A DNA stretch of 64,000 nt from Colwellia maritima. Lineage in GTDB: Bacteria; Pseudomonadota; Gammaproteobacteria; Enterobacterales; Alteromonadaceae. Shown here piece after piece: positions 2,386-26,522 of this stretch. Location: positions 124,001-188,000 of the forward strand of contig NZ_JAKKSL010000007.1 in assembly GCF_022669015.1 (NCBI RefSeq), read 5' to 3'. The notes beneath the pieces were generated by a model. It worked only from the letters and a program-made list of their open reading frames with translations, searched no databases and was not told the DNA's origin. The stretch's first letter is position 1; every line of letters begins with the position of its first letter. A program made the translations under genes and the position numbers.

Positions 2386-2390
2386 AATTA

Positions 2391-3803: not shown

Positions 3804-3807
3804 AAGT

Positions 3808-4784: not shown

Positions 4785-4845
4785 AGTACACCTCAATAAA
4801 ATTATAGAAGCGTATTATGGAATGATAAGAGGGTTGTTTTATTTG

Positions 4846-4872
4846 TTAGAGGGCTGTTTTTCACCCCTCTAA
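4846..4872 (-). promoter_or_regulatory. Site A: 27-bp palindrome upstream of traF
   Basis: TTAGAG-N15-CCTCTAA type inverted repeat, 27 bp edge to edge. On the minus strand a CATAAT(ACG) -10-like hexamer follows about 25 bp downstream, then the traF start. The same layout occurs at sites B, C, D and F. Inferred activator box for the FlhDC-like pair encoded at 5419-6285. Confidence 0.6.
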
Positions 4873-4875
4873 CAT

Positions 4876-5329
4876 TTAGAAGAGATTTATTTTTTTTATT
4901 ATTTTTAGAAACTTTTGCTGTGCGATAAGCTCATACGTATCCACATCAAGAGAATACGTCAAATAATTTTCTTTTGAGTATTCAGAGTTGGTACATTTAA
5001 ACATAACCGACTCGTCTGAATTTTGAATAGATTGAACCATTCCAAAGAAAAGGAATAGAAGAAGTTTTATCGTTTAACGTTCCAAACTCAATCGCAAAAG
5101 AGTCACCCGAAAGAGATAGGTTTTTAAGGTAGTTTCTAGGGCCGCCAACTGAGATCATTAGCGTGTATTTATTTTGTTTTTTTTGTATAACGATAATATT
5201 TTCAAGGTGGCCATCACAGATACCTTGAAGTTCTCTTTCAACAATTTCTGCTGATAAAGTTACTGTAGATGAAAGGGCTAACAAAGCCAAAGTCATTAAT
5301 TTTGATTTTACATTTTTCATAAAAGTCAC
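4876..5329 (-). CDS. Small secreted protein of unknown function (frameshifted)
   Basis: Starts MTFMKNVKSKLMTLALLALSS, a clear signal peptide, followed by a short Cys-containing periplasmic domain. The frame runs to about 5045 and then stops early at 4997. The adjacent frame continues MVQSIQNSDESVMFKC to a stop at 4876, giving about 150 residues in all; a one-base indel near 5045 in a T/C-rich run is the likely cause. No family recognised. It lies between the traF operon and the activator genes. Its stop falls almost on site A, which suggests it ends before the traF promoter. Confidence 0.5.
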
Positions 5330-5387
5330 CTTTGTTTTATTGCGGTGACAACAAATAGCAAAAGAGATAATACAATAACCATATCAT

Positions 5388-5404
5388 ACTGTCAATCGTA
5401 CAGT
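5388..5404. promoter_or_regulatory. Inverted repeat ACTGT-N7-ACAGT
   Basis: A 17-bp interrupted palindrome 59 bp upstream of the secreted-protein gene that starts at 5329. It resembles a LexA box, but the spacer is one base short of CTGT-N8-ACAG, so SOS control is doubtful. It could be an operator for that gene. Confidence 0.25.
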
Positions 5405-5418
5405 GTATGGTAGTTATA

Positions 5419-5961
5419 TTAACCACCAACTGCCTTTTGTTTGATGTTGTTTTTTTCTTTCAAAGAAAGTGATTCACGCTCTATCGCTACGCATAGATTG
5501 CATACTTTCTTTATATCATATGGATGAAAAACAAACGGTTGATTGCAACATTTACATGAAGGGGCTACAAAAACTTGCTCAGAACGCATATCTTTCACCC
5601 AGTAATGGATGCGATTTACTGACATGATATCTCGTGGATAAAGCATTTTGTAAGTAGTGAAAAAATCGTGTAACTCTAAAATACCGAACTTTCTTGAACA
5701 AAAGCTTGGGTTGTCGGAAAACATACGTGTGTATAATCGGTATAATCTATCTGCAGTGTAAGCGAGCGGAGATGATGAACGTAGCCAAGCGTTACCATCT
5801 CTATGCTTATATTCTGGGCCGCGAGGGTCGCTTGCAAAATGAGGGTTGATGGTGGCTGTATTAGAATAATAGCAAGCTATGACGGATTTCTGTGCGCCAT
5901 AACTTGCAAGTTCGATTGCGGCATTGAGATACTTAACTTTGGGTAAAACATTCATATCCAT
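5419..5961 (-). CDS. FlhC-like transcriptional activator (AcaC/SetC-type)
   Basis: 180 residues, like FlhC. The N-terminal helix (LNAAIELASYGAQKSVI) matches the FlhC AIELIRLGAR region. The C-terminus has the FlhC zinc site: CKCCNQPF about 15 residues before CNLCVAI. In SXT/R391 and IncA/C elements, SetCD and AcaCD are FlhDC homologues that form a heteromeric activator of transfer genes, so this gene probably does the same. It lies 9 bp downstream of the FlhD-like gene in one operon, in the acaD-acaC order. The 27-bp palindromes at 4846, 7903, 8724, 16893 and 18840 are the likely targets. The gene is intact. Confidence 0.8.
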   Translation of the reverse strand: MDMNVLPKVKYLNAAIELASYGAQKSVIACYYSNTATINPHFASDPRGPEYKHRDGNAWLRSSSPLAYTADRLYRLYTRMFSDNPSFCSRKFGILELHDFFTTYKMLYPRDIMSVNRIHYWVKDMRSEQVFVAPSCKCCNQPFVFHPYDIKKVCNLCVAIERESLSLKEKNNIKQKAVGG

Positions 5962-5970
5962 GCACTCTTT

Positions 5971-6285
5971 TTAAGCAGCGGTTACTCTATCCAACTCAAG
6001 ATCAGATAGTAGAGAAGACGATGGTAATGAATCAAGTAGTCGCTTAAATCCATCATTTTTTGAACGAATAGTTAAAATTGGTAGATTGTTTGGTGTGTCA
6101 TTTAATTGCAGCAACTCAGTGTGAGTAATTGAACTTAATGTCTCAACTGTCTTGTCACTGTAACCAAACACCCCTTTAAGTATTCTTGGAGAAGACATTG
6201 CTATATCTCTTTTCAACATCAGGATGGCAATTTCCATCCTCCTAAGTTCTTTTAGATTTTTTTCTATGTCTATATGTGAATTCAT
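5971..6285 (-). CDS. FlhD-like transcriptional activator subunit (AcaD/SetD-type)
   Basis: 104 residues, a mostly helical protein the size of FlhD. Called FlhD-like mainly by its position immediately upstream of an unmistakable FlhC-like gene, and by its helix-turn-helix-like central part (YSDKTVETLSSITHTELLQL), since FlhD-type sequences diverge strongly. Likely partner of the 5419-5961 product in activating conjugation. No 27-bp palindrome lies upstream; instead there is an ACCTAC/GTAGGT inverted repeat right before the start, which could be the operator of a repressor (SetR/Acr-type) outside the window. Confidence 0.65.
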   Translation of the reverse strand: MNSHIDIEKNLKELRRMEIAILMLKRDIAMSSPRILKGVFGYSDKTVETLSSITHTELLQLNDTPNNLPILTIRSKNDGFKRLLDSLPSSSLLSDLELDRVTAA

Positions 6286-6289
6286 TTTA

Positions 6290-6315
6290 ACCTACCTAAT
6301 TATTATGAAGTAGGT
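6290..6315. promoter_or_regulatory. Inverted repeat ACCTAC-N14-GTAGGT upstream of the activator operon
   Basis: Perfect 6-bp arms within 30 bp of the FlhD-like start, in otherwise AT-rich DNA. The position suggests an operator or leader hairpin controlling the master activator genes. No binding protein can be assigned. Confidence 0.3.
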
Positions 6316-6466
6316 AATTATAAACACTCGCTGACAATACAGTCAAATTTTTTAACAAAATTTTATGTTATTTTACCTTTTTTTATTTATCGTTTTGCGT
6401 GAAGGAAATTGAGTGATGAATCAAAAGCCATCGCCTTACTGAATAGCGAGACGATGTTTTACTGAG

Positions 6467-6736
6467 TTACATTTGTGTAATATCCATACCAAAATCAACA
6501 GGTTTTATATCTTCCTTTTTTTCATTAGTAACGCTATTTTCGTTGGAAGCTATATTGCTATGAGAAACATTTATATCGCTATTAACGCTTGACACATTGA
6601 GATTAAAAACGCCTTTCTCCATCAGTAATCCATTCGTGGCCAAACGAACAAGTTCAAAATTTCTAGCTTTAGGGGAAAGATCTTTGAGATATTCACACAA
6701 AATAGTATCGGGTATTTTAATTTTAAAACTATTCAT
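6467..6736 (-). CDS. ParR-like small partition protein
   Basis: 89 residues, 3 bp downstream of the ParM-like gene, the usual parM-parR operon layout. The first 45 residues (IPDTILCEYLKDLSPKARN) look like a ribbon-helix-helix N-terminus; the rest is polar and low complexity, as in adaptor proteins that contact ParM filaments. R391/SXT carry a comparable srpM-srpR pair. The assignment rests on position and size; sequence similarity was not tested. Confidence 0.55.
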   Translation of the reverse strand: MNSFKIKIPDTILCEYLKDLSPKARNFELVRLATNGLLMEKGVFNLNVSSVNSDINVSHSNIASNENSVTNEKKEDIKPVDFGMDITQM

Positions 6737-6739
6737 ACA

Positions 6740-7810
6740 TTAAGCTGCCGTGTTTTTGAGTTGGGTAGCTGCGTAGTATTGAAGCCCACCGTAATACATT
6801 CCAGTACAAATGGCGGTAAGGGGGTTTTTGACTACGGTGATTTCGTGTGCAGGATAAGCTTCTTTAACCGCGTTCAAAAATACTTCATGAGGACCACCCA
6901 TAAGTAAAATTAAATCTATATCACCACCAAGACCCACCTTATTTTGAGTGCTAGTTAACGCTGAGCCTGTTACGTTTGAAATAGCAGAGCGAACATCAAA
7001 ATGAATATCAACATCTTTACCACTCATATCTTTACCAACACAAACAGGAAACGGGTATTTTCTACCTGCAATACGAATGTGATCTTTGTGTTTGTAAAAT
7101 GCTTCATCAATTTGCTCTATTGGGATAGAGCCAAGATCAGGAAAGGCAACCTTTAAAACACGTGCAACCGAAGCAAGTACAGCACTCATTCCTTGATCTA
7201 CACCACCACTTCTACTGTTGTTTATGATAAGCCCTTTGCTACATATGAAATCCCAAGTCCCGAACCCCGGATCTAATGATAAGATAGTTTTTTCGCGCAT
7301 CTCACTGAATGCCGCTTGGCCTGAGTCATTTGCATGAGACAAAAGACCGCCCATTGGTTGCACAATAACCCAACAATCTTTTATATTATATTTTTTCCCG
7401 TTTACTTCATGACAACCAATAACTAGATCTTTCAGCTCTTGTTTACGGTGCCAGTTCTCGACCGGAAGACCCAAAACCAACAAATCTATTTCAGTTTCAT
7501 TCATATAAACAAGTGATCCAAAAAGGAGAGCTTGGTATTGATCAGAAGTAATATATTTATTATTTAGGACGCGGCCATTTGTTTTGTCTGAGCCAAGAGA
7601 TGCATCAATACCGATCTCATATTTTGAACCTTTAATATCAACCAAAACAGTATTTCTATCATTTAGTCCCGCACCAAGATCACTTTTACTTGGGTCAACC
7701 TGCGAAACAATGGAAGGAAATGTAAGAATTTTTGGCGAACCATTTTCATTAACGCCTGTAACAAGGCTAGTCGAACCAAAGCCCAATTCTAATGCTCTTA
7801 TTGTTGCCAC
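6740..7810 (-). CDS. parM: ParM/StbA-like actin-family ATPase (possibly PRTRC protein D)
   Basis: Actin-like ATPase for plasmid or ICE partition. Visible motifs: phosphate-1 LELGFGSTS near the N-terminus, phosphate-2 LSLDPGFGTWDF mid-protein, and the adenosine motif LLMGGPHEVF near the C-terminus. The open frame extends to 7888, but a GTG at 7810 preceded by GAGGTAATAACA gives the usual N-terminus just before phosphate-1, so this start was chosen (356 residues). PRTRC system protein D is also a ParM/StbA-like protein with a similar DVGYGNT-type start, so this could be the D component, placed 23 kb from the rest of the cassette. Site B lies 93 bp upstream, and iteron-like repeats lie further upstream. 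Confidence 0.8.
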   Translation of the reverse strand: MATIRALELGFGSTSLVTGVNENGSPKILTFPSIVSQVDPSKSDLGAGLNDRNTVLVDIKGSKYEIGIDASLGSDKTNGRVLNNKYITSDQYQALLFGSLVYMNETEIDLLVLGLPVENWHRKQELKDLVIGCHEVNGKKYNIKDCWVIVQPMGGLLSHANDSGQAAFSEMREKTILSLDPGFGTWDFICSKGLIINNSRSGGVDQGMSAVLASVARVLKVAFPDLGSIPIEQIDEAFYKHKDHIRIAGRKYPFPVCVGKDMSGKDVDIHFDVRSAISNVTGSALTSTQNKVGLGGDIDLILLMGGPHEVFLNAVKEAYPAHEITVVKNPLTAICTGMYYGGLQYYAATQLKNTAA

Positions 7811-7902
7811 TGTTATTACCTCTATTATGTTGTGAACATCTTTTTGAGAAAACCCCAAAACTATAAAACGTATAATAAACCTGTTCAAAAAGAAGTGATT
7901 TA

Positions 7903-7929
7903 TTAGACACGAGTATTTTGCCTGTCTAA
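7903..7929 (-). promoter_or_regulatory. Site B: 27-bp palindrome upstream of parM
   Basis: TTAGAC-N15-GTCTAA, again exactly 27 bp. On the minus strand a TATTAT -10-like hexamer follows 26 bp downstream, then the parM GTG. The arm carries a compensated change (GAC/GTC instead of GAG/CTC), which keeps the symmetry and supports a functional dimer or heteromer site. Confidence 0.6.
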
Positions 7930-8066
7930 CAATAAATAATTAAAAAGTTCGTCATGACACCCAATAGTTACCCGAACGGAACTAAAAAGTGTAGTTGGAA
8001 ATTTGTACGTAAATAACTTGTTATACAGTCACCCTATTGGTGCCATAAAAGCCCCAGAAAGACACT

Positions 8067-8133
8067 TGTACTCTCCTGTACACTCCTTTTGTTACGGAAG
8101 TGATCCTAAAAGTTCCTAAAGGTTCCTGAAGTA
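8067..8133. repeat. 10-bp direct repeats, candidate partition centromere
   Basis: Two sets of 10-bp direct repeats upstream of parM: TGTACTCTCC then TGTACACTCC (8067-8086), and TCCTAAAAGT, TCCTAAAGGT, TCCTGAAGTA (8104-8133). ParR proteins bind arrays of 10-11-bp repeats near their promoter, so this is a plausible parC/srpC-like site. Inference from position and periodicity. Confidence 0.4.
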
Positions 8134-8143
8134 GATAGCAAGG

Positions 8144-8359
8144 TCATTGGCAATCAAAGTAAATGGATTGGATTAAATAGCGCCTTTGAATACCACCTCT
8201 AAGGAAAAACCCGAATAAACTGCTGCACCACGCACCAATTGCAACAAATAATACTGCATCACAACAAATAACCTGTATTTTATTTGTAAAAAAACCAATG
8301 GTATCTATGTTAATCCCAAGCAAAACCTCAACAACGCAGAAAAATATAAAATATTGCAC
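8144..8359 (-). CDS. Small hydrophobic protein, uncertain
   Basis: 71 codons starting MQYFIFFCVVEVLL, with two hydrophobic stretches and a basic tail (RGGIQRR). No convincing ribosome binding site and no family recognised. It lies in the intergenic region between the partition and mobilisation genes, where cis-acting sites are expected, so it may be a chance reading frame. Confidence 0.25.
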   Translation of the reverse strand: MQYFIFFCVVEVLLGINIDTIGFFTNKIQVICCDAVLFVAIGAWCSSLFGFFLRGGIQRRYLIQSIYFDCQ

Positions 8360-8723
8360 ACGCAGTTATAATGAAAATAAAATACTGCAAAATAGGTAAT
8401 ATAACGAAGCAAAAACAGAATTATACAAGTCAACATAACTAACCTACAAATCACCACCCTTCAAGCTCTTGGGAAAAAGATCTTTCTAGCCTGGTAATTG
8501 CAACTAAAGGCTCGCTTCGTGCAAAAAACAGGCGACATTTACTGATTCAAGATCGGCAGAGTCAAATATAATCGTTTTTTTACTGCCCTCACTTAATAAA
8601 GTGCGGTAAAGATAATTTATACCCTACTTTGTGTATATGTTCTTTTTCTAAAAAAAAGTTGCAGCGTGCAAACGGATGTAATTTTGCGGAATGTATATTT
8701 ACAGTCGTTGATAAATAAAATCA
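8360..8723. other. Non-coding region, candidate oriT
   Basis: About 360 bp without a credible gene, AT-rich, directly upstream of the mobI-like gene. SXT/R391 and IncA/C elements have oriT in this position relative to mobI. It contains a small hairpin CACTT-AATA-AAGTG (8590-8603). No nic sequence can be recognised, so the call is positional. Confidence 0.35.
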
Positions 8724-8750
8724 CTAGAGAGGCAAATTCAGGGCCTCTAA
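8724..8750 (+). promoter_or_regulatory. Site C: 27-bp palindrome upstream of mobI-like/traI operon
   Basis: CTAGAG-N15-CCTCTAA, 27 bp, with a TAGAAT-like -10 about 24 bp downstream and the first gene start 59 bp downstream. Same geometry as sites A, B, D and F. Likely drives 8809 to 16818. Confidence 0.55.
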
Positions 8751-8808
8751 TAAAACATGGTTCAAAAAATAGCGATAGAATTCCTTAACCAATAAAGGAG
8801 GTTTAGTC

Positions 8809-9342
8809 ATGGCGGTAGTAGAGCTAGACATGAGTGATTGGTCTGACGGTGATATCCGTATCTTTAATACTGTTGTCAATGCAGAAATAGAAGAGATTGA
8901 TAGAGCCAGGCGAATAGTTGATAAGTACTGGGTTGGCTTTGAGCGTTCAAACAGAGCCATCTTAAATGACAAAAAAATAGGTGTAGATAGTAAAAGGAAG
9001 ACGAGTGTTTTAGCTCCTGTAATAGAAAAGGTTGAAACATCTGGTCGCAATTCAGCAAGAATTATTTGGTGTTTGTTTGAGTGGAAAGGATTTCAAAAAC
9101 GAAATAGAAACGCGTGGAAGCGGGTGCCTTTTTCTAAAGGGCATTACGAATATACGTACAACCCTTCGGTTTTAGTAAAGCATTCCGTTGGGTGGGATTC
9201 TATCTCAATACTTGAAACTGAGGCTCAACTTGAACCCATACGATTAACACTTAAAAACTATCAAAGAATGATTGTATCAATGTCGGCTAAATACCGACGC
9301 GTTAGTAAATTAACCCAAAAGAGAGAGTTTATTTATGGCTAA
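8809..9342 (+). CDS. MobI-like auxiliary mobilisation protein
   Basis: 177 residues, start preceded by AAAGGAGG. It has the layout of the MobI(A/C)/SXT MobI family: an acidic N-terminal helix ending in YWVGFERSN, then a basic W-rich central part (IIWCLFEWKGFQKRNRN, WKRVPFSKGHYEY), then a C-terminal helix. MobI is needed with TraI to process oriT in those elements. The position, first gene of the relaxase operon and next to the likely oriT, fits. Identification is by pattern only; identity to known MobI is probably low. It overlaps the next gene by 8 bp. Confidence 0.5.
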   Translation: MAVVELDMSDWSDGDIRIFNTVVNAEIEEIDRARRIVDKYWVGFERSNRAILNDKKIGVDSKRKTSVLAPVIEKVETSGRNSARIIWCLFEWKGFQKRNRNAWKRVPFSKGHYEYTYNPSVLVKHSVGWDSISILETEAQLEPIRLTLKNYQRMIVSMSAKYRRVSKLTQKREFIYG

Positions 9343-10249
9343 TAATAAAGTAACGAGAAAAAGAGAAGCACAACTAAACCCAACAACACGACTAGTGGAT
9401 AAAGTTGTGACTATGAAGTTACCTGTCAGTTATGAGAGTACTATTCTTCACGAATATCTTACTTACTCACAAGGCACAATGCTTGCCATGTTCGAGCGTT
9501 TAGGTGGTCTTCTGAGAATGTTAAGTAAAGATGCAAAACTCACCGAGTCTGTTCGTGTTTGGCAGACGTTAAATTTAGACATCTGTAAAAAGCAGTTGTC
9601 GGAAATCACCACTAGACGCGAAATGCCGGTAATGGGTATGGATATAGAATTACCTGAAATAAACACGCCTGACAGTTACAAGGTAGATTTTATTGCATCT
9701 CACCCGATTGCTCATGACATGGTTAAATTAATTAAATCAGTTAGTGATGAGTTAAGGGAAAACGAAGCTCTTTACATGGGTGGGGTTATTGATGATTCGG
9801 ATTACGAAAGCTTAAAAGCGCAAGCTGTGAAGGTGTTAAGTGGTGTTGTTGATAGGATTGCAAAAGCCACATTCCCTGGCAAGCGCGATGGTGGCGGTTA
9901 CAGTCCAGAGTTATTGGCTAAATATATTCGCAATGGAAACAGACTTGAGTTTGCAGACGTTCCGCCGAATGTAAGAGATATTATTTCCGAGTATGCGCAG
10001 GCAACGAACCAGGCAGAGAGCAGTCCTGATACACAAAAGGTTATTGAGAGTGGTCCTGATACACAAAAGGTTGTTGAGAGCAGTCCTGATACACAAAAGG
10101 TTATTGAGAGCAGTCCTGATACACAAAAGGTTATTGAGAGCAGTCCTGATAAACAAAAGGTTGTTGAAGAACCCAAAACTAAAAAAGCTGTAGTGAAAAA
10201 ATCATCAGCAAAAGGTAAAAGCGAAACCCCTAAAGTGGAGGCTGCTTAG
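9335..10249 (+). CDS. DUF1845/AcaB-like protein with a repeat-bearing tail
   Basis: 304 residues. The first 210 (KLPVSYESTILHEYLTYSQG, then MFERLGGLLRML) resemble DUF1845 proteins, which include the AcaB regulator of IncA/C plasmids and are common just upstream of traI in MOBH elements. The C-terminal 90 residues are disordered: five copies of a 10-residue unit (SSPDTQKVIE type) followed by a Lys-rich tail. It may be a DNA-binding regulator or relaxosome helper. It sits between mobI-like and traI, overlapping the first and abutting the second, so it is translationally coupled. Family assignment is tentative. Confidence 0.45.
   Translation: MANNKVTRKREAQLNPTTRLVDKVVTMKLPVSYESTILHEYLTYSQGTMLAMFERLGGLLRMLSKDAKLTESVRVWQTLNLDICKKQLSEITTRREMPVMGMDIELPEINTPDSYKVDFIASHPIAHDMVKLIKSVSDELRENEALYMGGVIDDSDYESLKAQAVKVLSGVVDRIAKATFPGKRDGGGYSPELLAKYIRNGNRLEFADVPPNVRDIISEYAQATNQAESSPDTQKVIESGPDTQKVVESSPDTQKVIESSPDTQKVIESSPDKQKVVEEPKTKKAVVKKSSAKGKSETPKVEAA
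10019..10168 (+). repeat. Five 30-bp in-frame tandem repeats
   Basis: Five nearly identical 30-bp units (AGCAGTCCTGATACACAAAA type) encoding SSPDTQKV(I/V)E, with few third-position or single-residue differences (one SG, one DK). The array is in frame and recent in appearance. Copy number is likely to vary between strains. Confidence 0.9.
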
Positions 10250-12655
10250 ATGGCATCGTCCGTTGCGTCAAGAATCAAGGCCGCACTTGCGGTCTTGGTA
10301 AAAGGTGATAACAAAAGCAAAGAGCTATCGGTTAAAAGTGGTGTGCTGTACGACATATACGGACGAGAAATACTAGATGGGAGTGACTATTTTCATCCAA
10401 ACCAAGTAAAGGGTATCCCGGTGTTCGATACTGACTCAGTGTTAGAGCAGCACAGAGGGTACGTAAAAGAAATAGAGCGTATTTGTGGTGTTGGGGATCA
10501 CAGAAAAACAAATGATGGTAAAGAGTTAAGAAAAGAGTTGTTTGAGATGGTTGTTAGGCGTTTCATAGAATACGTTCATCTTCTTCCTGCTTCAGAGTCA
10601 CATCATCATAGTGTACCAGGTGGGATGTTAATACATGCCCTTGAAACAAGTTCTTGGTCATTGCGCTCCGCTAAAAATGTAAGACCGGCAACATCAGGAA
10701 GGCTTGATGTAGATAAGATGCTTGAGCCATCTTATCGATATGCTGCTTGGGTGGGTGGTTTAATGCACGACATAGGTAAATTAACATCAGACATGAATGT
10801 GTTTGCGGTATCAACCTATGACAAGGAAACCAAAACCAACAAGAAAGTTTCTGACATTATTCCACATTGGCACCCTGAGAAGGAGTCGTTAATTACTTGG
10901 GCGAAGCGCTATGACATTGCGACTTATTCAGTGTCATTCAAGGGAGATAGAATACATAATCAACATAACTCAGTAACATCGTCTTTGATGTCTCCGATAT
11001 TGGGAGACGGCGTTGCCTTGGACAGATTACTAACTTCCCTATTAACGTTCACCATGAGTTAAGTAAGGTGTTAAACGGCACTGACAGTAAGTGTGACTAT
11101 CTGAGAAAAGCAATTCGCGTTGGTGACAATAAGAGCACAGGCGAAAATCTAAAAGTATTTCAGCATTTAAAAATGGGACCAGGCAAATTATCCAGAGCAG
11201 CGATGATATTCAGAGCTATTCAGTGGAGCCGGCCAAATTGGTTGATCAACAAGCCTAACGGTCACGCGTGGGTAATAGGTGATGATATATATCTAAGATA
11301 TACCAGTGCTTTCGACATCATCCAAAAAGAAGCAGAAAAAAACAGCTATCAAGTGACAAGTGAAAGTCAAGGACTGTTAGAGGTCATGGTAGAAAACAAC
11401 ATGATTGAAAAATACAGCGAAAGCAGTTGGTCGGTGAAATATCTTTGGCGGAATCTTTACAGAGAATGACATTTCAGAAATACGTTCAGGTAAAAAGACA
11501 ATAGGTTGGGAGTCAGTAGTAAAAGTGATATGGAGAGGGGTTGTGTTTGGCTCGGACCCAGTACCAGATTGCGCACCAGGAGTAATGTTATTACCTGACA
11601 ATGAGCTAATGATATTAGTAAGGACTGACGGCACAACACAAGAATTTCGGCGCCAAACACAAAGGATGTAAATAAAAGCCCTCAACAAACTAAAGCTAAA
11701 GTCAGCGACACACAACAGAAGCAAGGCGTTATTATCGAACATGAAAAGCCACTTCCTACGGATGTAAAATCACTTAATGCCAATACGGAAGCTGAGAAAA
11801 AAGTAAAAAACAAAACAAAATCTAAGGCCAAAAAAAAGAATCCAAAGACTAGATAAAAAGGAAGATAAAACAAAAGAGAATCCAGTTAAATCTAATAAAG
11901 GACTTGTGTTTAAGAATGCACCTAAAAAATCGCCGACTACTGCAGTCGAGTCGTTACCATCAGAAGTTGTTGAGTTTTGGTGTCAGGCTGTGTTTGTCAA
12001 GAGGCCACCCAAGGGAATGAACTTAATCAACCTTAATGATAGTGCAAAAGTGTTTGGTATGTCGGCACCCGAGCCGGCAACCAAAGCAAAGAATGATGGT
12101 GTTGTTATCCCTAATCCATCAGCACCATTGAAGGTAGTCACCATCTATGAAAATGAGCCATGTTTGAATGTTCTAGTGTCTGCGGCAGTTATTGAAAGCG
12201 AAGGTGAAGCTGAAGTTAAAAAGATAGACCCTCTGTTATCCACTGCGCCCATTCAAGATGATAAAAGTAAAAAAGAAGATGATGTCAATGAATGTGATAG
12301 TAACGACATATGGGTAACGGCAAAGGCCAATGAAAGTGATCATGAATTAAAAATACTTACGAGTGCAGCGACCAAAAAACACAGTTTGGGTTATGCATTG
12401 TCAGTTGTCATAGAAGCAGGTTCAGAGAGTGATTGCTTGATTCAAACAGAGAATGGTTTGTTGTTAGATGTCGGCTTAGTTGCTAAAGCAATACAAGATT
12501 CAGGTAAGTATGTGACACGAGCTAGAACAATTTGTACAGCATTAGTTTCATCGGGGTTAGTAGGTAAAGGTAGGTATGAGGAATTATTTCTTGTTCCTTA
12601 CGAGCAAATAAACGAGATTAAATTAAGAATGAGAGCGTGTAATGGAAAGAACTAA
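10250..12655 (+). CDS. traI: MOBH relaxase TraI (several frameshifts)
   Basis: Relaxase of SXT/IncA/C-type elements, which nicks oriT and starts transfer. The N-terminal TraI_2 domain shows the HD-type metal motif (HHHSVPGGMLIHALETS, then GLMHDIGKL). Frame breaks occur near 11040, 11455, 11655 and 11853; the frames in order give HELSKVLNGTDSK, IFGGIFTENDISEI with DPVPDCAPGVMLL, a Lys-rich linker, and a C-terminal domain ending YEQINEIKLRMR. The total of about 800 codons is slightly longer than SXT TraI because of the linker. The end overlaps traD by 14 bp. Homopolymer A and T runs surround at least two of the breaks. Confidence 0.85.
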
Positions 12656-14563
12656 TCCGAGTTATACAGAGCATTTATTTAGACCTGTCTATGAGTTGAA
12701 TACAGCGGTTACTTGGGTAGGGGGCGCGATAGGTACTCCATTTTTAAGTTACTGGCATTCAGGTTCAGGTGTATTAGGGGTTTCATTGGCAATTTCAGGT
12801 GTTATGGCTACGGTCGGCTGTTATTTTGCAGGCCAAGCTTACCCACTATTATCAAGACAGTTGAGATTAACGAGTAACAAAAAGACTTTTATGGATGTAA
12901 ATGAGTTACGTGACATTAACCAATTAAGAATACGTCATGAAAAGCCAAAGAAAGATAAAAGACGTACCTATATTGGTGAGGGTTTTGTTTGGGGTTCAGA
13001 GCACGCTCAACGAGCCTATCAAGTAATGGATATGGACTCGACGCTATCTGACGTTAAGCTGCCGTTTTTTTTAAAGCCAAGCAGAAATGATGATGCGCGA
13101 AGAGACAGAAAAGCTCGGTGGAGCTCCTTGGATTCATGGTATGGGTAAAGACAAGCCGATTACAACCTCAGAAGAGGCTTGGTATGGGCATACTTTAATC
13201 ACAGGGAATGTTGGTACAGGTAAAACGACCTTGTTGCGTTTGATGTCATTGAACGCGCTTCATTTAGGTAACGTATTAGTTGTTGTTGACCCAAAGGACG
13301 ATGAAGATTGGCAAAAATCAATTAAAGAAGAAATGAATTACTTAGGGATTGGTGATAAATTTTTTCATTTACATCCGGCTAAACAAAACACATCTGCTCG
13401 CATCCCGTTGTTAAAGAATTTTACGCGAATTACAGAGATAGCCGACAGGGTGGCTCCGTTAATGGGTTCTGGCGGCTCAAGTAAGCCATTCCAAGATTTT
13501 GCATACGGGATAATTTATCACACAGCCAATGCGTTGGATTTTTTGGGTGAGCCTATACGTTTAACATCAATACAAAAGATTATTGCTAGTGATCGTAAAG
13601 GGTCGGCGTTGAGAGTCTTGCGTAAACATTTCACTGACACGATTGGTGAGGAGTGGGAGGTTAAGTATGCCAATGCACTTGATAAGTTAGACCCTGATCC
13701 TTTAACTGCAATAGCTATGTTCTACAACAATGGTAGCAGAGTGAAGAGCAAGGTTGTTGAAGGTATGATTGAATTTGCGTTACATGATGAAGGTCACTAC
13801 GCCAAAATGGTTGTGAGTTTACGCCCTGTATTAACGGCACTGACAGCAGCACCACTTGATGATTTATTATCACCGCTTGACGATGAAGTTGACGAAGATG
13901 AAAGGCCAATGGTGGATTTGGCAGACATTATGGAATCAGGTGGTTGTATTTATGTGTCATTGGATTCATTAACTGACTCTACATCTGCAGGTTTTATATC
14001 AAGGTTGCTGTTGGCAGAGATGGCAGCGATAGCGGGTGAGCGCTATAACAATGGTGTAGGTGATTCACGCAGAGTAACAATAGCAAATGACGAAGTACAC
14101 GCATCACTGGAGAACAATGATGCGTTGTTAAATATCTTAGCGCAAGGCCGTGCAGCCAAAATGCAAATGCTACTGGCCACTCAAACTGTTGCGGATTTAG
14201 AGGCTAAATCAGACGCGGCAACCGCAAGCAGGTTCTTAGGTTTGTGTAACAACTTTATGAGTATGCGAACGACCGACCCTAAAACACAGGAGTATGTTGC
14301 AAGCCAATTTTCTAAAAGCTCGGTAGCACAATCACAAGTGCAAACAGCAACGAGCAGCGACACGAGTACTTCAATTTTTGAATTTGGTGCAAATCATGGT
14401 GAGCGGTTAATGAAGCAACGAGAAGATATGTTTCAAAGCAGAATTACTTGGTCAGTTACCAACATTACAATATGTAGCGAGGTCGGCTGACGGCAGAAAG
14501 ATGAAAATGAGACTTCCAATCATAACCAGTGACGACACAAGGGAGATTGCCCCATGGATATAG
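12642..14563 (+). CDS. traD: Type IV coupling protein TraD (two frameshifts)
   Basis: Hexameric ATPase linking the relaxosome to the secretion channel. The N-terminal part has two membrane segments (about residues 24-68). A break near 13090-13120 shifts into the frame LGGAPWIHGMGKDK, followed by Walker A GNVGTGKTTLLRL and Walker B-like VLVVVDPKDDEDW, in the way SXT TraD reads. Later ANDEVHASL is the conserved second-acidic region. A second break near 14462 changes the end from TICSEVG to QYVARSADGRKMKM, with a stop at 14563. It overlaps the next gene (ATGGATATAG). Confidence 0.88.
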
Positions 14564-15159
14564 TGCAAACGAACGAACCTGAACAGAATGTGATAAAAAT
14601 TAACTTCAACAGAAAGAATATTACCAACCTAACCAAAAGACAAGCAATGGCGATGATATGTACAAGCAATGTTTGTCATATTGAGCAGGCGGGACAGCAC
14701 CATGGTGGCGTACCAGAATTAGCATACCGACTAGCGCAATATGTAGGAAATATATTACCTTTTGGTGAAGCAAATCTCTTGGACTATATTCTATCGGATG
14801 CGCTTACAGCGTGGGACTCGGTTTATGAAGAGCAAGGTGCTCGTGTCGCTTACCAATCATACTGTATGACAATAAGAGAGTTGCTGCCATTAGTCTTTAA
14901 TTATCGTGTTAGCTCCAAGAAACGATTAATGCCATATAGTGCTGCTATTTGGAATTGTGTGACTCAAGGTATTTTTGAATGGTTAAATGATTGCCAACTA
15001 AATGATGTAGAGATTGAGATGGGTAGTTATGATTCCACGTTAACACCAAAGGAGATGTCATTACTTGTGAGTCATAAAGTGTTTTCACGCATAGATATGA
15101 TGCACTGGGGATTACCGCCAGAAGGATTTATTGATACAAAAAAAGAAGGGGGATTTTAA
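14554..15159 (+). CDS. Unknown protein of the traI-traD operon
   Basis: 201 residues, start overlapping the traD stop, so translationally coupled. No membrane segment or signal peptide; mixed helical composition with many aromatic residues (VTQGIFEWLNDCQ). No family recognised. Its place between traD and the DUF4400-like gene suggests a cytoplasmic role in transfer, but this is inference only. The gene is intact. Confidence 0.7.
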   Translation: MDIVQTNEPEQNVIKINFNRKNITNLTKRQAMAMICTSNVCHIEQAGQHHGGVPELAYRLAQYVGNILPFGEANLLDYILSDALTAWDSVYEEQGARVAYQSYCMTIRELLPLVFNYRVSSKKRLMPYSAAIWNCVTQGIFEWLNDCQLNDVEIEMGSYDSTLTPKEMSLLVSHKVFSRIDMMHWGLPPEGFIDTKKEGGF

Positions 15160-15160
15160 T

Positions 15161-15814
15161 GTGTCAACAGTCATAGCAAATAAAAAAATTTCTCGGCTTC
15201 AAATTTATAATGTTATTTTTGCTTCTTTGGTTTTCTATGTTTTTACTATGTTAATTCTAAAAGACGAAGCCACTTATCAAGAGCAATTAATCACAGAGTC
15301 GGGTATATAGAAGCTCATGCAAGCGATGGTGTGTGGTTATCTATTGATAAGAGAGCGCGAGATAGGCATCAGAAATATTTATATAGCAGCGGTGCATATG
15401 GCGTGATCAAGAAATGGTTTTTACCCAAAGAAAGTGACAGTCCGGTGAATAATACATTTAGCGGCAAATGGAATTATCGCGCAGTAACAAATATTCAAGT
15501 ATTGCACTTTCAGGTTATGCATAGATTTAGCGCAATGGAGCATTGGGCTGTTGAATTGTTTTTCTTTAGTGTGGCCATGATTGCTTGGGGTTACAACCAG
15601 TGGAGAGCAGGGAAGTACCGATTGGGTGGGGCTTCGGTTAACCGGGTTCGCTTGTGGCTAAAATTGTTGTGGCTCACCGTGGGCATGATCCTCACTTTTG
15701 TAGTGTCACCGAATATTTTTGGGGAGTATACATATTACGCCCCAAACAGTATTTATCATAGTACTGTCTTTTGCAGTATCAAAGTTAATTCAATCGTTTA
15801 ACAAATCATTTTAG
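15161..15814 (+). CDS. DUF4400/TraJ-like membrane protein (two frameshifts)
   Basis: The chosen GTG start at 15161 gives VSTVIANKKISRLQIYNVIF with an N-terminal membrane segment. A break near 15300 leads to YIEAHASDGVWLSIDKR, and a second near 15742 changes the tail to TVFIIVLSFAVSKLIQSFN. The assembled protein has about 217 residues and four membrane segments. SXT and IncA/C elements carry a DUF4400 gene just after traD; the HW.VELFFFSVAMIAWGYNQW-like segment and basic loop fit that family. The second break is at a CCCCAAA run. Role: an unassigned inner-membrane component of transfer. Confidence 0.6.
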
Positions 15815-15827
15815 TGGAGGGTGTTTT

Positions 15828-16818
15828 ATGAATTTATTTAAGAAGAAAGACAAGGAACAACAATCAATGGAAATAGGCGCTGTAGCTGATAGACATTTGA
15901 GTACATATGTTCGCTTGGCCAATACAACTAACGCCATGAAAGTCGGATTAATGGGTGTTGGTATTATAGGAATGACATCGACATGGTTATTTGGTGATAT
16001 GGTGTCGTCGAACGACCCTGAAATAGCTCTTATTCAGATCAAAGGAAATATTAGCGCTGACAACGCAACGGGTAATGGTGCCAAGATAGCAAAGGCATTA
16101 GAGGATGCGATTAAAGGTGTAAATACCAAGGCTGTTATTATATCAGCGAATAGCGGCGGTGGCTCCCCGGTGCAAGGAGAAATAATTAACGAAGCAATTA
16201 AAGATATTAAGTCACGTCGCGGCGAATTAGATGATGAAGGGAATGCCACACCAGATATACCGATTATTGTTTCCATTGAAGATGTGTGTGCTTCAGCGTG
16301 CTTATTGTCAATATTAAACGCGGATAAAATTTACTCTCACAGAAATAGTTTGGTTGGTTCTATTGGTGTTCGTATTGATGGTTATGCTATAGATGATGCT
16401 CTGAAAAATATTGGTGTTGAACGTAGGGTACTGACATCAGGCGTTAATAAAGCATTACTTGACCCCTACTCAAATTGGAGTGATCAACAAGAAGAAAAAG
16501 TAAAAACGGCATTAATAGACCCTCTTTACCAAAGAATTTGTTAATGATGTTAAGGAAGCTAGAAAAGATAAGCTTGATACGAGTAACAGCGAATTATTCT
16601 CGGGTATGGTCTGGACAGGTCAACAAGGAGTGGACATAGGGTTGGTGGACGAAATAAAAACAAGCCATGACATTAAGCGCTTCTTGATGGACAAGTACGA
16701 TACAGAAAAAGTGAAGACGTATAATAGAGAAGGGTTCTCTCTCAGTAAAATGATGACAGCTTCCTTTACGGATGCAATTACCGCAACACTAAAACAAGCA
16801 GTAAAAATAGATAGTTAA
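15828..16818 (+). CDS. S49 family (SppA/SohB-like) membrane protease (one frameshift)
   Basis: N-terminal membrane anchor near residues 33-55, then a ClpP-fold protease domain: IALIQIKGNI (start of the fold), the SGGGSP oxyanion strand region, IEDVCASACLL with the likely catalytic serine, and the conserved VGSIGVRID. The frame breaks near 16535, and the next frame gives TKEFVNDVKEARKDK and WTGQQGVDIGLVDEI. Together about 330 residues. S49 proteases cleave signal or membrane peptides; the position one gene before the pilin suggests processing of pilin or removal of its leader peptide, which is inference. The start follows GTGGAGGG. Confidence 0.8.
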
Positions 16819-16838
16819 GTAGTGGTGCTGTAAAACAA

Positions 16839-16869
16839 TAAAAAAAAGTCGTTATACGGCTTTTTTTTT
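16839..16869 (+). terminator. Rho-independent terminator after the S49 protease gene
   Basis: AAAAAAAAGTCG-TTATA-CGGC followed by nine T. A short GC stem extended by A/T pairing makes it bidirectional in principle. It separates the traI-traD operon from the pilin gene. Confidence 0.65.
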
Positions 16870-16892
16870 GCCCAAAATAACACGTTTAAAAA

Positions 16893-16919
16893 TTAGGAAG
16901 CGAAAATTTCCCCCTCTAT
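16893..16919 (+). promoter_or_regulatory. Site F: degenerate 27-bp palindrome upstream of pilin
   Basis: TTAGGA-N15-CCTCTAT, the same 27-bp length and a core (AGCGAAAAT) close to site D (AGCGAAATA), with a TTAAAT -10-like hexamer about 26 bp downstream. One arm deviates from the consensus. Likely gives traA its own activator-dependent promoter. Confidence 0.45.
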
Positions 16920-17002
16920 CAAAACTAAAGCACCTAGAACTACGGTTAAATAGCATCAGGTTGATTGAGTTATACATAAACAAACATTTGGAGAATTTAA
17001 AC

Positions 17003-17323
17003 ATGAGCTTCCTACCAAAAATTAAAGCTGCGTTAAACATCAAAACAGTTAAAACATTATTACTAATTTCAATTGCTACCTTGTTCGGCATTAACATGGC
17101 TATTCTTGGCTCTGGTGGTGAAGCGTTCTTACCTATTTATTCAGAGATTGAAGGTTGGTTGGATGGTGTACCGGGTAAAATTGTTGCTATCTTAGCGTTT
17201 GGTGCTGCGATGGTTAACGTATTAAAACAAAACTACTTAGCAGCTTTAGGTGCATTTGTTGGCTGTATGTTGATGGCTAACGCTGTAAGCATCATTAACT
17301 TCTTCTTAGGTCTTGGTATCTAA
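17003..17323 (+). CDS. traA: Pilin TraA
   Basis: 106 residues. The open frame extends upstream, but the ATG at 17003 after TTGGAGAATTTAA has the best ribosome site. The protein has a basic N-terminus, a hydrophobic leader (TLLLISIATLFGINMAILG), a polar loop and two C-terminal hydrophobic helices, the F-type pilin plan. It is flanked by terminators on both sides and by its own palindrome-linked promoter, which fits a structural protein made in high amounts. In SXT traA follows traV; here it precedes dam and traL, an unusual order. Confidence 0.75.
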   Translation: MSFLPKIKAALNIKTVKTLLLISIATLFGINMAILGSGGEAFLPIYSEIEGWLDGVPGKIVAILAFGAAMVNVLKQNYLAALGAFVGCMLMANAVSIINFFLGLGI

Positions 17324-17341
17324 TACCACCCCCACCTTGAA

Positions 17342-17380
17342 GAAGCAAAAAACCCATGCGTAGCGTGGGTTTTTTGCTTC
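17342..17380 (+). terminator. Strong terminator after traA
   Basis: Perfect 15-bp inverted repeat, GAAGCAAAAAACCCA on the left with its exact complement on the right and a 9-base loop, ending in a T-rich arm. Works in either direction. Expected to limit read-through from the pilin into dam. Confidence 0.9.
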
Positions 17381-17457
17381 TGACGAACTATTTTTTAGTT
17401 TGTGGCGCTGTTGAGTTTATTTGTTATTGTTATTGTTATTATTATATAGGGATAATT

Positions 17458-18291
17458 ATGCTTAGACCTTTTTTAAAGTATCCGGGTTGCAAGTATAGGT
17501 TGATGAACAGGATTAACGATATGTTACCCCAGGGCAAAGTGCTGTGTGATTTTTTTGTGGGCAGTGGTGTGACTATGCTTAACACAGATTTTGAACGTTA
17601 TATTTTAAGCGACATTAATCCGCACTTAATTCGTTTATATAAAACGCTTCAGGAAAGACCGGGTGAATTAATTGACTTAGTTGATAGTGCATTCACACAG
17701 CGCAACAATGAATCAGATGTTTATTATCAAGCCCGAAAAGAATTTAACCGGCACACAGATATAAGCGACCCTACTGGTATGCTACGTTCTTCATTGTTAG
17801 TATGGTTAAATCGTCACGGTTATAATGGGTTAATGCGCCTCAATGGTAAGGGTGAATTAAACGTACCCTTTGGCTCATATAAGGCAGTGCACGCCCCGTT
17901 AAGTGAGATGGAAGTGTTTGCCCAAAAAGCTAAACGAGCAACGTTCTATTGTCGTGATTATGCACAATCCTTTATAGCTACTCGTCATTTGAAAAGCCAT
18001 ACAGTGTACCTAGACCCTCCTTATGCAGAGGAAAACAAGAAAAAGAAAGTGTTTACAGGTTACGCGGGTAATCGTTTTGATTTAAAAGATCAGGTACGTT
18101 TAACCGGGTTCGCAAAGCGTCGCGGGATTAAAACTGGGGGTGGTGTAGTGATAAGTAACCACGACACTGAGGTAACACGAGCGTTATATAAAGATGCAGT
18201 TGAGTTAGCGTCGTTTACAGTACATCGTTCGATTAGTTGTAATACAAAAGGCAGGGTTAAAGCAAACGAATTATTGGCGAGGTTTGGTTGA
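17458..18291 (+). CDS. dam: D12-class DNA adenine methyltransferase (Dam-like)
   Basis: 278 residues from the ATG at 17458 (MLRPFLKYPG); the open frame is longer, but this start matches the family. Motifs: FLKYPGCKYR at the N-terminus, the AdoMet site CDFFVGSGV, the target-region segment WLNRHGYNGLMRLN, and the catalytic motif YLDPPY. Expected to methylate adenine in GATC-like sites. A lone methyltransferase on a conjugative element may protect from host restriction or change gene regulation. It stands in its own unit between the traA terminator and a terminator at 18299. Confidence 0.9.
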   Translation: MLRPFLKYPGCKYRLMNRINDMLPQGKVLCDFFVGSGVTMLNTDFERYILSDINPHLIRLYKTLQERPGELIDLVDSAFTQRNNESDVYYQARKEFNRHTDISDPTGMLRSSLLVWLNRHGYNGLMRLNGKGELNVPFGSYKAVHAPLSEMEVFAQKAKRATFYCRDYAQSFIATRHLKSHTVYLDPPYAEENKKKKVFTGYAGNRFDLKDQVRLTGFAKRRGIKTGGGVVISNHDTEVTRALYKDAVELASFTVHRSISCNTKGRVKANELLARFG

Positions 18292-18298
18292 TAAAAAG

Positions 18299-18330
18299 CT
18301 GTTTACACTGCGCTTAGGCAGTGCAAACAG
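18299..18330. terminator. Bidirectional terminator between dam and a small minus-strand gene
   Basis: CTGTTTACACTGC-GCTTAG-GCAGTGCAAACAG, a 13-bp stem with one mismatch, preceded by A5 and followed by TTTAGA. Placed exactly between convergent genes. Confidence 0.75.
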
Positions 18331-18331
18331 T

Positions 18332-18517
18332 TTAGAGTGTATTATTGTCAAATAAGTCGTCTGGGTAATCAAAAAAACTAAAACTTCTGTTAAGATCATC
18401 TTCTTTGTCAGCCTCGAACGCTTCTGCGATAAAGTCTGTTGAGTGCTCTTGTGACTTACTGTTACCAGTGCATATAAATAAAAAAGCAACTGCGATAACA
18501 AGGAAAAATAAGAACAT
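18332..18517 (-). CDS. Small single-pass membrane protein
   Basis: 61 residues: MFLFFLVIAVAFLFICTGNS is a membrane segment or lipoprotein-like leader, then an acidic tail (EADKEDDLN, DYPDDLFDN). It has a good ribosome site (AAGTGGAGT) and a terminator right after the stop, which support a real gene. It is convergent with dam. No family recognised. An entry-exclusion or inner-membrane regulatory role is conceivable but unsupported. Confidence 0.5.
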   Translation of the reverse strand: MFLFFLVIAVAFLFICTGNSKSQEHSTDFIAEAFEADKEDDLNRSFSFFDYPDDLFDNNTL

Positions 18518-18839
18518 ATTGTTTACTCCACTTCATTGATTGAGTAGTTATTATACTAATATTTTATCATACCACCATAAAGCTGCTTTCAAAACAGTTA
18601 GTGTCAATAATCAACAATCAACACAACTCATTTAATGTCATGGCGTGACAATAAATACCCTTTCGAAAATAAATAAAAAAATATAACAGTGCAAAAAATT
18701 AAGGAAACTTCCTTATACGGATGTTTTTTTAAGGTGTGTTCTATTCAAGGTAGATGCCGTAGTCATGGCGTATTTTATCTAAATCTAGCTCGCAAAAATT
18801 AGAACACAATTTATTATAGCTTGATTATAAGGTGATTTG
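18518..18839. other. Intergenic region upstream of traL
   Basis: About 320 bp without a credible gene. It holds the promoter of the small minus-strand gene near its left end and a short palindrome AAGGAAACTTCCTTA near 18702. Otherwise AT-rich with no recognisable signal until site D. Confidence 0.4.
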
Positions 18840-18866
18840 TTAGAGAGCGAAATAAAGCCTCTCTAA
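18840..18866 (+). promoter_or_regulatory. Site D: 27-bp palindrome upstream of traLEKB
   Basis: TTAGAG-N15-CTCTAA, the clearest copy, with arms extended to TTAGAGAG/CTCTCTAA. A TCTAAT -10-like hexamer lies about 27 bp downstream, and traL starts 69 bp downstream. Confidence 0.65.
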
Positions 18867-18934
18867 GAACACTGCCCCTCTATTTTTTCCTGTCTAATAC
18901 TTTCACTGACAAATATCTTTTATAAGGCTTACCA

Positions 18935-19210
18935 ATGGATGAAAACCCTAACGAATACAGAAATCCAAAACGAATCAATGAACCCCTAACATTAATACTT
19001 TGGCCCATGCACCACATACTTCCACCGCTAATGATGTTGGGTTTAGGTTTGGTTTTTGGTAACCCTATTCTTTTGGTACTTATTGGAATGATTTGGTTCT
19101 ACCTCATTCGTTTTATCGAGTCAAAATATCCTAGAGGCTATTTGTTGCATTACTGGTGGTATAACGGTTTGAGCGCTTGGGCTTTTAAAGGAAACAAGAA
19201 GTGTGCCTGA
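18935..19210 (+). CDS. traL: Pilus assembly protein TraL
   Basis: 91 residues: a short polar N-terminus (NPKRINEPLTLILWPMHH), two membrane helices around residues 28-58, then RGYLLHYWWYNGL near the C-terminus, the classic TraL pattern. Inner-membrane component of the F-type secretion apparatus. First gene of traL-E-K-B, 69 bp downstream of site D. Confidence 0.85.
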   Translation: MDENPNEYRNPKRINEPLTLILWPMHHILPPLMMLGLGLVFGNPILLVLIGMIWFYLIRFIESKYPRGYLLHYWWYNGLSAWAFKGNKKCA

Positions 19211-19246
19211 TCCGTACAAACGCAAATTTTATTAGTAGGAAAGAAG

Positions 19247-21052: not shown

Positions 21053-21053
21053 G

Positions 21054-26495: not shown

Positions 26496-26522
26496 GTGGA
26501 GCGTGTTTTTTTGCGCCTCTAA
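26496..26522. promoter_or_regulatory. Site E: degenerate 27-bp palindrome
   Basis: GTGGAG-N15-CCTCTAA, preceded by GTGATTTG as in sites B and D, and exactly 27 bp. The right half matches site C (GCCTCTAAT). A TAATAA/TATGTA -10-like stretch lies 20-25 bp to the left on the minus strand, followed by the terminator at 26406. The regulated product would be a short RNA rather than a protein, or the site is a relic. Confidence 0.35.

Follow-up and report, generated by a model that had tools for sequence, protein, structure and literature searches.

Boxes before transfer and partition genes

What reads a 27-bp palindrome that recurs before transfer and partition genes of Colwellia maritima is the question raised by this locus. 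The window, meaning the whole stretch of 64,000 nt analysed here, is a portion of a plasmid-like contig of 271,096 bp and carries traF (in pieces), traH-like and traG-like genes (526..4796, - strand), a ParM-like actin (PF17989; 6740..7810, -, start taken as GTG 7810), MobI (PF19456; 8809..9342, +), a small pilin-like protein (17003..17323, +) and traL, traE, traK and traB-like genes (18935..22259, +). The pilin-like protein was named by size and place, had no Pfam match and shares 38% identity over 88 residues with the protein before traL in pMBL6842. A search of Rfam with the leader RNA returned nothing.

All six places at which the first-pass annotation had seen the inverted repeat TTAGAG-N15-CTCTAA were recovered, each 27 bp from edge to edge. 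Predicted operator boxes precede the traF operon (4846..4872, -), the parM operon (7903..7929, -), the mobI operon (8724..8750, +), the pilin-like gene (16893..16919, +) and the traL-E-K-B operon (18840..18866, +); the box at 16893 was placed by the scoring matrix described below and the other four by both pattern and matrix. Both hexamers were exact only at 4846 and 18840 among the six, with one mismatch to the hexamer pair at 8724, two at 7903 and at 26496, and three at 16893. At 7903 the symmetry is kept by a paired GAC/GTC change (TTAGAC...GTCTAA), just as had been described. Gene starts lay 58-92 bp past the five boxes by our count (59-93 bp in the earlier one), taking ATG 4784, GTG 7810, ATG 8809, ATG 17003 and ATG 18935 as starts. 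The sixth, weaker site (26496..26522, -), found by pattern and matrix, does have an AATAAT 26 bp past the box on the - side, but its standing as an operator stays doubtful because the nearest called ORF starts 190 bp away.

Distribution across the contig and the genome

Within the window alone, the hexamer pair at ≤3 mismatches was not enriched, with 40 occurrences against a shuffle mean of 31.0 (sd 5.45) and as many in 6 of 100 shuffles. Because this count is near chance, the weak sites are not made to rest on the hexamers alone; by matrix score 8724, 7903 and 16893 ranked 5th, 7th and 8th, with no equals in 40 shuffled contigs, and 26496 ranked 12th, with 0.17 expected per shuffle. The near-chance count would suit inverted repeats that arose by chance, act as terminators or belong to a dispersed repeat family, yet we consider this hardly credible given the distribution of the better copies. 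All four exact copies in the 5.23-Mb genome lie on the contig, which also holds 9 places at ≤1 mismatch vs 5 elsewhere in the genome. A single arm spacing is favoured on the contig, N15 giving 4 exact copies and 9 with ≤1 mismatch, against maxima of 1 and 3 for other spacings from 0 to 35. The boxes are mostly intergenic, with a -10-like hexamer at a constrained spacing from them (see below), and since their inner letters differ between copies they do not represent a recently moved repeat.

A de novo motif search of 173 upstream regions, chosen without use of the known sites and including some shared intergenic regions twice, also returned the palindrome. The scoring matrix was trained on the contig's four exact sites only, with 40 shuffled contigs as background, and yielded 10 sites besides the four training sites at a score that a shuffled contig would reach at 0.93 places. 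Of the 14 sites together, 13 fall outside called ORFs and the remaining one precedes its likely ATG. The scan of the whole element that the first-pass annotation had proposed thus produced enrichment upstream of transfer genes on the contig relative to the 40 shuffles. Genes preceded by boxes include mobI, parM, traF, traL and those for the pilin-like, dsbC, S26 peptidase, Ig-like, LPP20 and EAL proteins. No box was found upstream of the flhDC-like genes among the 40 best matrix matches of the contig, and a passage of PMC4542580 likewise reports that none was seen for setCD.

Another plasmid-encoded DNA-binding protein could bind the box while the FlhDC-like pair acts elsewhere, for example the small protein at 6467-6736, which adjoins parM and matches no Pfam family, or a regulator that went unrecognised. 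Partition partners are often DNA-binding, but the usual target of partition proteins is a cluster of repeats at a single centromere. The boxes are instead single and scattered over many operons, and their layout resembles that of AcaCD- and SetCD-type elements, so that we judge such a binder improbable compared with the FlhDC-like pair itself.

Promoter geometry

The -10-like hexamers noticed past five of the boxes were present, starting 26 or 27 bp beyond the box edge: CATAAT at 27 bp for traF (4814..4819, -), TATTAT at 26 bp for parM (7872..7877, -), TAGAAT at 26 bp for mobI (8776..8781, +), TTAAAT, a 4/6 match, at 27 bp for the pilin-like gene (16946..16951, +) and TCTAAT at 27 bp for traL (18893..18898, +). 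At 5 of the 16 oriented sites on the contig the hexamer at 26/27 bp is outscored by a rival somewhere between 13 and 45 bp past the box, four of these sites lying within the window (4846, TATAAT at 40 bp; 7903, TATAGT at 38 bp; 16893, TAGCAT at 32 bp; 18840, TATTTT at 15 bp). The 16 oriented sites represent 15 boxes, with contig position 26073 counted in both directions and contig site 150496 (window 26496) excluded. Matches of ≥5/6 to TATAAT at 26 or 27 bp occurred at 13 of the 16, vs 3.0% of random upstream positions and 0/14 on the opposite side; at ≥4/6 the figures were 15 of 16, 17.7% and 5/14. No circular shift among 5000 was equally good, a figure that is optimistic because the sites had been oriented by the direction of their genes and contig site 4575 also by its -10.

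The dyad centre lies 39-40 bp from the -10 on the contig, and no TTGACA-like hexamer stands out. With the dyad centre about 40 bp from the -10, the promoter-side edge of the box therefore abuts or covers the place of the missing -35. The contig thus shows the arrangement of the SetCD/AcaCD group, in which many tra operons are headed by one and the same operator next to the place of an absent -35. A symmetric dyad beside a promoter also suits many repressors, and the boxes could accordingly bind a repressor or have a dual role in activation and repression. We hold this to be very unlikely, as the box ends 25-26 bp before the -10-like hexamer, occupying the -35 place, and a promoter that lacks a -35 as a rule depends on an activator.

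The FlhDC-like pair

The assignment of the genes at 5419-6285 as FlhDC-like was supported by remote similarity. The FlhC-like protein (5419..5961, -; 180 aa, four conserved Cys) matched Pfam FlhC at E 0.0061 with 16.8 bits, under the cut-off of 27 bits, and the FlhC-like proteins of four relatives had no Pfam FlhC match. Cys 136, 139, 154 and 157, of the zinc type, were invariant in an alignment of the window protein and those four relatives; a sixth row, from S. xiamenensis, was dropped as unrelated. A search of structures with the FlhC profile found no FlhC structure, and the structure model of the FlhC-like protein was unusable (mean pLDDT 35.6). The FlhD-like gene (5971..6285, -; 104 aa) lies directly upstream of the FlhC-like gene, as in the SetCD/AcaCD group. 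Alone, the window protein had no Pfam match, whereas a profile of five syntenic FlhD-like partners found the FlhD structure 1g8e at E 8.2e-5; of the 11 rows matched by the FlhD-like model, 10 were FlhD chains, weakly (E 0.4-4.2).

The pair sits between traF and parM/mobI, and TraG, ParM-type partition and MobI nearby constitute the gene context that marks the SetCD/AcaCD group; the same context is described for SetCD/AcaCD relatives in PMC4542580, which also names a lysozyme-like gene. Very probably, then, the 27-bp palindrome is where the FlhDC-like activator encoded on the plasmid itself binds as at an operator. The sequence shows the repeat, its restriction to the contig, its one spacing, the genes that follow it and the -10-like hexamer. 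We infer that the pair binds the box, that binding activates and that the pair has an inducer.

Comparison with known operators

The box had been expected to differ from other known boxes, and it does. The flagellar FlhDC box of E. coli is longer, with its arms separated. Flagellar FlhDC is of the same family as the predicted Colwellia activator, and its class II activation (a passage of PMC4542580) is the mode predicted here. The AcaCD box of IncA/C plasmids (PMC4207636, PMC5058578) is a 27-bp dyad with an AT-rich centre in our search of pRA1, where such dyads precede traF, traL, dsbC, parM and an Ig-like gene with a -10 about 26-28 bp past. The AcaCD motif partly overlaps the -35 in a class II arrangement, as set out in a section of PMC4542580. 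Its GCCC-N5-GGGC core contrasts with the TTAGAG outer arms of the Colwellia element and, by eye, is present in 0 of the 16 contig sites; the activators themselves appear only distantly alike, judging by weak profile scores.

For SetCD of SXT/R391 (PMC4344509), a partly symmetric site precedes traF, dsbC, traI, traL, traV and xis in an SXT-type ICE, with the -10 about 25-27 bp past it, as with the Colwellia boxes. The SetCD motif lies immediately upstream of the -35 and differs drastically from FlhD2C2 and AcaCD sites, according to the portion of PMC4344509 that treats it. It departs from the Colwellia box in its GATAGATG-type half, weaker symmetry, xis among the targets and a chromosomal element. 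AqaCD of pAQU1, named without a motif in the relevant passage of PMC4542580, shares the Colwellia gene context, a 27-bp dyad and a comparable -10 distance, although its dyad core is of IncA/C type rather than TTAGAG.

Dyads in related elements

In searches for close relatives of the element, query P0001 matched only itself among 147 relatives, and alignment A1, among 394 genomes of the order, matched itself and one weak sequence with an internal stop and a 66-aa open frame. No TraD was found in genome contigs, no match to P0001 or A1 in viral contigs and none to P0001 in phages; plasmids gave two records for P0001. Exact TTAGAG-N15-CTCTAA occurred in 56 of the 394 genomes, none of those listed besides Colwellia maritima with more than 2, and a reversed-pattern control reached 3 in G163, G165 and G257. 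We treated these copies as background, three inspected matches (G377, G432 and G358) having no second site with <2 mismatches. By eye, G377 (CAAAAT) and G432 (TATTTT) each have a 4/6 hexamer 26 bp beyond one side of the match; on the Colwellia contig, 17.7% of upstream positions have ≥4/6 at one of two adjacent starts. The G377 match is placed among lipB, lipA, DUF493 and dacA-type genes.

Palindrome searches in seven FlhDC-bearing relatives gave dyads of 26-30 bp in five, that of A. mediterranea being weak. The enrichment in related elements that the first-pass annotation had asked for held in part. The box letters are not kept, with no place at <2 mismatches in the bases scanned of the two nearest relatives, but an other-letter dyad with a similarly placed -10 precedes orthologous genes in both and is strong in one. 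In relatives the dyad centre and the -10 are about 40-42 bp apart vs 39-40 bp on the Colwellia contig; one of the tests behind these figures took the best sites of relatives only (8, 6 and 9), which had been found without use of the -10, and omitted weaker ones.

In IncA pRA1, the same kind of search recovered GCCC-N5-GGGC, the known AcaCD core, published as GCCCAAAATGGGC in the motif account of PMC5058578. Width 27 had the best likelihood among the palindrome widths tried in the first search; width 28 had a z of 21.8 vs 21.2 for width 27, but its likelihood was lower and its motif mixed. pAQU1 gave a 27-bp dyad with an IncA/C-type core and a -10 at a similar distance, and the result for the SXT-type ICE varied by run (width 27, z 8.6 and then 4.2). 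The 28-bp dyad of A. mediterranea is outscored by an AT-rich motif of 24 bp, which has no -10 at a fixed distance (581 of 2000 shifts did equally well). When the P. rubra and A. mediterranea plasmids were first searched with automatically called ORFs, different motifs came out; their dyads appeared after a switch to annotated operon starts with slightly changed sets, the statistics following, and the A. mediterranea promoter set was altered again before its statistics. No interpretable motif emerged from the P. spongiae and P. donghaensis promoter sets, and the z of 6.8-7.7 for the latter is ascribed to shared intergenic stretches counted twice. S. xiamenensis pHD6416 was set aside, the gene at its flhC place not being an FlhC relative.

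All z values are rough because the null sets were small (8-24 shuffles per width). A cross-element run, in which the Colwellia promoter set was picked with the sites already known, put the best width at 29 or 30 in five of six elements and at 24 in A. mediterranea; since the best width shifts between 27, 28, 29 and 30, the data do not fix the exact operator length. Comparison thus supports the FlhDC-like reading, a similar dyad layout appearing in five of the seven relatives tried. On balance, FlhDC-like transfer activators appear to share a common operator chassis, a dyad of ~26-30 bp centred 39-42 bp upstream of the -10, with letters rewritten per lineage. The kind of operator is already known from AcaCD and SetCD; the layout common to the elements is the newer claim.

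Proposed regulon and significance

In the proposed mechanism, a heteromeric FlhDC-like complex would bind the dyad, centred ~40 bp upstream of the -10, and once bound would recruit sigma-70 polymerase to the promoter by class II activation. One regulon may thereby join the relaxosome (mobI), partition (parM) and the mating channel (traF, traL, dsbC and the pilin-like, S26 peptidase, Ig-like and LPP20 genes), together with an EAL protein and a number of genes of unknown function; a structured RNA may belong to it as well.

In passages of a 2015 review (PMC4542580), further FlhCD-like regulators found in conjugative elements were expected to recognise unrelated motifs, and knowing these was expected to aid the discovery of new mobilisable islands. 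Predicted operators are now available for the Colwellia element, P. rubra pMBL6842 and pAQU1 (an IncA/C-type box), with a weak one for the A. mediterranea plasmid, and a common geometry could make FlhDC-like operators findable without ChIP. If correct, pAQU1 is predicted to use the IncA/C-type code, leaving room for crosstalk. For the Colwellia plasmid a testable regulon is defined, which takes in partition as well as an EAL protein of the c-di-GMP phosphodiesterase type, and if the chassis is indeed shared, the transfer regulon of a plasmid and the islands that hijack this regulon could be readable from sequence alone.

Distribution of the palindrome and its carrier contig

The 27-bp inverted repeat TTAGAG-N15-CTCTAA, which the first-pass annotation placed before transfer and partition genes, was confirmed. 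A mismatch-free pattern scan recovered it at positions 8959, 119981, 128846 (window 4846) and 142840 (window 18840) of the carrier contig NZ_JAKKSL010000007.1 (C7) and nowhere else in the 5.23-Mb genome, in which the reversed control pattern had no exact copy; with at most one mismatch, there were nine places on C7 and five on the remaining contigs (control, 5). Only a spacing of 15 was favoured on C7 (4 exact, 9 with at most one mismatch), the other spacings from 0 to 35 giving at most 1 and 3, respectively. A symmetric matrix derived from the four exact sites, run on C7 and 40 dinucleotide shuffles, detected 14 places on C7 before the number expected per shuffle reached 1. Thirteen of these fall outside ORF calls, with the remaining one (window 16893) falling within an ORF call but in its leader, ahead of the likely ATG at 17003. 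Motif searching of 173 upstream regions ranked the palindrome first among palindromic motifs and also placed it at the core of the top free motif; C7 39298, before an S26 peptidase gene, was added by this search. Genes behind the boxes comprise mobI, parM, traF, traL, dsbC, pilin-like, LPP20-like, Ig-like, S26 and EAL genes and several unknown genes.

Contig C7 (271,096 bp, the window being bases 124001-188000) is probably a plasmid and carries an SXT/IncA/C-like transfer region, encoding MobI, a TraI_2 domain, SXT-type TraD, TraL, TraE, TraK, a TrbI/TraB-like protein, TraF, TraH and TraG_N, with DsbC, TraC, S26 peptidase and TraU beyond the window. An overlap between its two ends was looked for and not found. 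Reading frames of traF, traH, relaxase and traD are broken into pieces (window 526-4796 and 10250-14490), as if frameshifted by decay or sequencing error; the pieces were searched separately. TnpB-type genes lie close to tra genes (window 28204-29295; L005:7228-8400), and plasmid-like C7 also encodes a 1345-aa CobN/BchH-like chelatase subunit (window 57518-61555), which scores under curated cut-offs.

Promoters at the boxes

The claim of a -10-like hexamer at a set distance also held. Across 16 oriented sites, representing 15 boxes, the hexamers 26/27 bp past the box were TAAAAT (6), TAGAAT (2), TTAAAT (2) and one each of TATAAT, TATTAT, TACAAT, CATAAT, TCTAAT and TAAGCT. At least five of six TATAAT positions matched in 13/16 and at least four in 15/16, compared with 3.0% and 17.7% of random upstream positions and 0/14 and 5/14 on the boxes' opposite side, and none of 5000 circular shifts gave an equally good arrangement. 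This hexamer was the top scorer within 13-45 bp at 11/16 sites, a different one outscoring it at traF, traL, parM, pilin and Ig. No prominent TTGACA-like -35 was found at the box promoters of C7.

The box at C7 26073 (L006:6073-6099) has TAAAAT 26 bp off on either side, between divergent genes, and is possibly a bidirectional promoter. At C7 51239-51720 (L007:11239-11720), ~420 nt downstream of a box with its TAGAAT hexamer at 27 bp fold strongly (z -8.0 against shuffles, 0/100 as good), possibly as an activator-driven RNA or leader; an Rfam search returned no match for this stretch. An EAL-domain gene (C7 119131-119910; L010:19131-19910) has an exact box of its own. The transfer regions of pRA1, pAQU1, pMBL6842 and the A. 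mediterranea plasmid likewise contain annotated EAL or diguanylate phosphodiesterase genes, and breakdown of c-di-GMP may therefore belong regularly to this transfer programme.

Candidate regulator

The gene pair at window 5419-6285 codes for FlhC-like and FlhD-like proteins. The former matched Pfam FlhC at E 0.0061, under the cut-off, and the FlhC-like proteins of four relatives had no match to that model; four cysteines are unchanged across all five. Such weak scores agree with the statement, in PMC4542580, that Pfam models are unsuitable for these FlhDC relatives. A profile of five syntenic FlhD-like proteins matched the FlhD entries 1g8e (E 8.2e-5) and 5hxg (E 4.2e-4) of the PDB set, whilst the FlhC-like profile found no FlhC structure. 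FlhD chains occupied 10/11 match rows for a structure model of the FlhD-like protein, none significant. The palindrome is read as the probable operator of the FlhDC-like activator, an interpretation that the analysis supports.

Palindromes in related elements

Neither P. rubra pMBL6842 nor the plasmid of A. mediterranea 615 (170,588/200,847 bases scanned) had a TTAGAG dyad with fewer than two mismatches, and promoter sets were therefore searched for palindromes of any sequence, which revealed other-letter dyads before tra genes, with a -10 at a like distance, in five of the seven relatives tried. In pMBL6842 (20 promoters), widths 26 (z 12.5) and 28 (z 13.1) stood out, with consensus TTACGCCCCCTAAATTTAGGGGGCGTAA and with widths 25 and 27 at only ~z 2; sites included traF, dsbC, pilin-like, traL, Ig-like and S26, matching C7, and the pilin-like and Ig-like genes of the two are homologous. 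None of the better dyad sites lay at the mobI and EAL promoters of pMBL6842. IncA pRA1 (22 promoters; width 27, z 21.2) yielded GCCC-N5-GGGC, recovering the known AcaCD core of IncA/C (PMC5058578), and pAQU1 (23 promoters; width 27, z 30.2) yielded the same core. The SXT-type ICE of E. coli cq9 gave width 27 at z 8.6 (24 promoters) and width 29 at z 11.9 (23 promoters), with sites at traF, traV, dsbC, xis, traI and traL; SetCD binding upstream of xis, traV and traF is documented in PMC4344509. The A. mediterranea dyad (22 promoters; width 28, z 5.2; mobI, traF, traG, traL and two others) scored below an AT-rich 24-bp motif, and the search of P. spongiae and P. donghaensis promoters gave nothing interpretable.

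Since the pAQU1 tra promoters (stretches L044, L047 and L048) bear the IncA/C-type box, AcaCD and AqaCD may cross-activate, and pAQU1 would be predicted to answer to that box. In CP004847 a second motif, CCTGCCCAAATCGTAGCGGCATTACTT, precedes genes of the ssb and ligase/PAPS reductase regions, mostly by 25-60 bp (motif search examples upstream of record positions 165634, 166641, 167403, 25630 and 27958). TTAGAGGTCTTGTTATAATCCCTCTAA recurs in genomes of one other genus (G135, G154, G226, G238; near-identical in G214, G250) and is probably an unrelated conserved element.

Shared geometry

With sites in relatives located without use of the -10, the distance from dyad centre to best -10 window was ~39 bp in C7, 40.5 in pMBL6842, 40 in pAQU1 and the SXT-type ICE and 42 in pRA1 (0/2000 shifts as good in each), and ~40 bp at the six A. 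mediterranea 28-bp sites (0/5000). A fixed class II arrangement beside the -35 is published within AcaCD and within SetCD promoters (PMC4207636, PMC4344509 and PMC4542580), the two boxes being described as differing greatly (PMC4542580). This analysis adds that the dyad and -10 distance agree across lineages although the letters differ. That agreement was not found stated in the available portions of PMC4207636, PMC4344509, PMC4542580 and PMC5058578, and we make no claim of its absence from print; none of six transfer-regulation terms occurs in PMC7848731, on pMBL6842. One more FlhDC-like activator with its own predicted box is the ordinary part of the result; less ordinary are the prediction for pAQU1 and the shared geometry, which ties together boxes described as greatly different.
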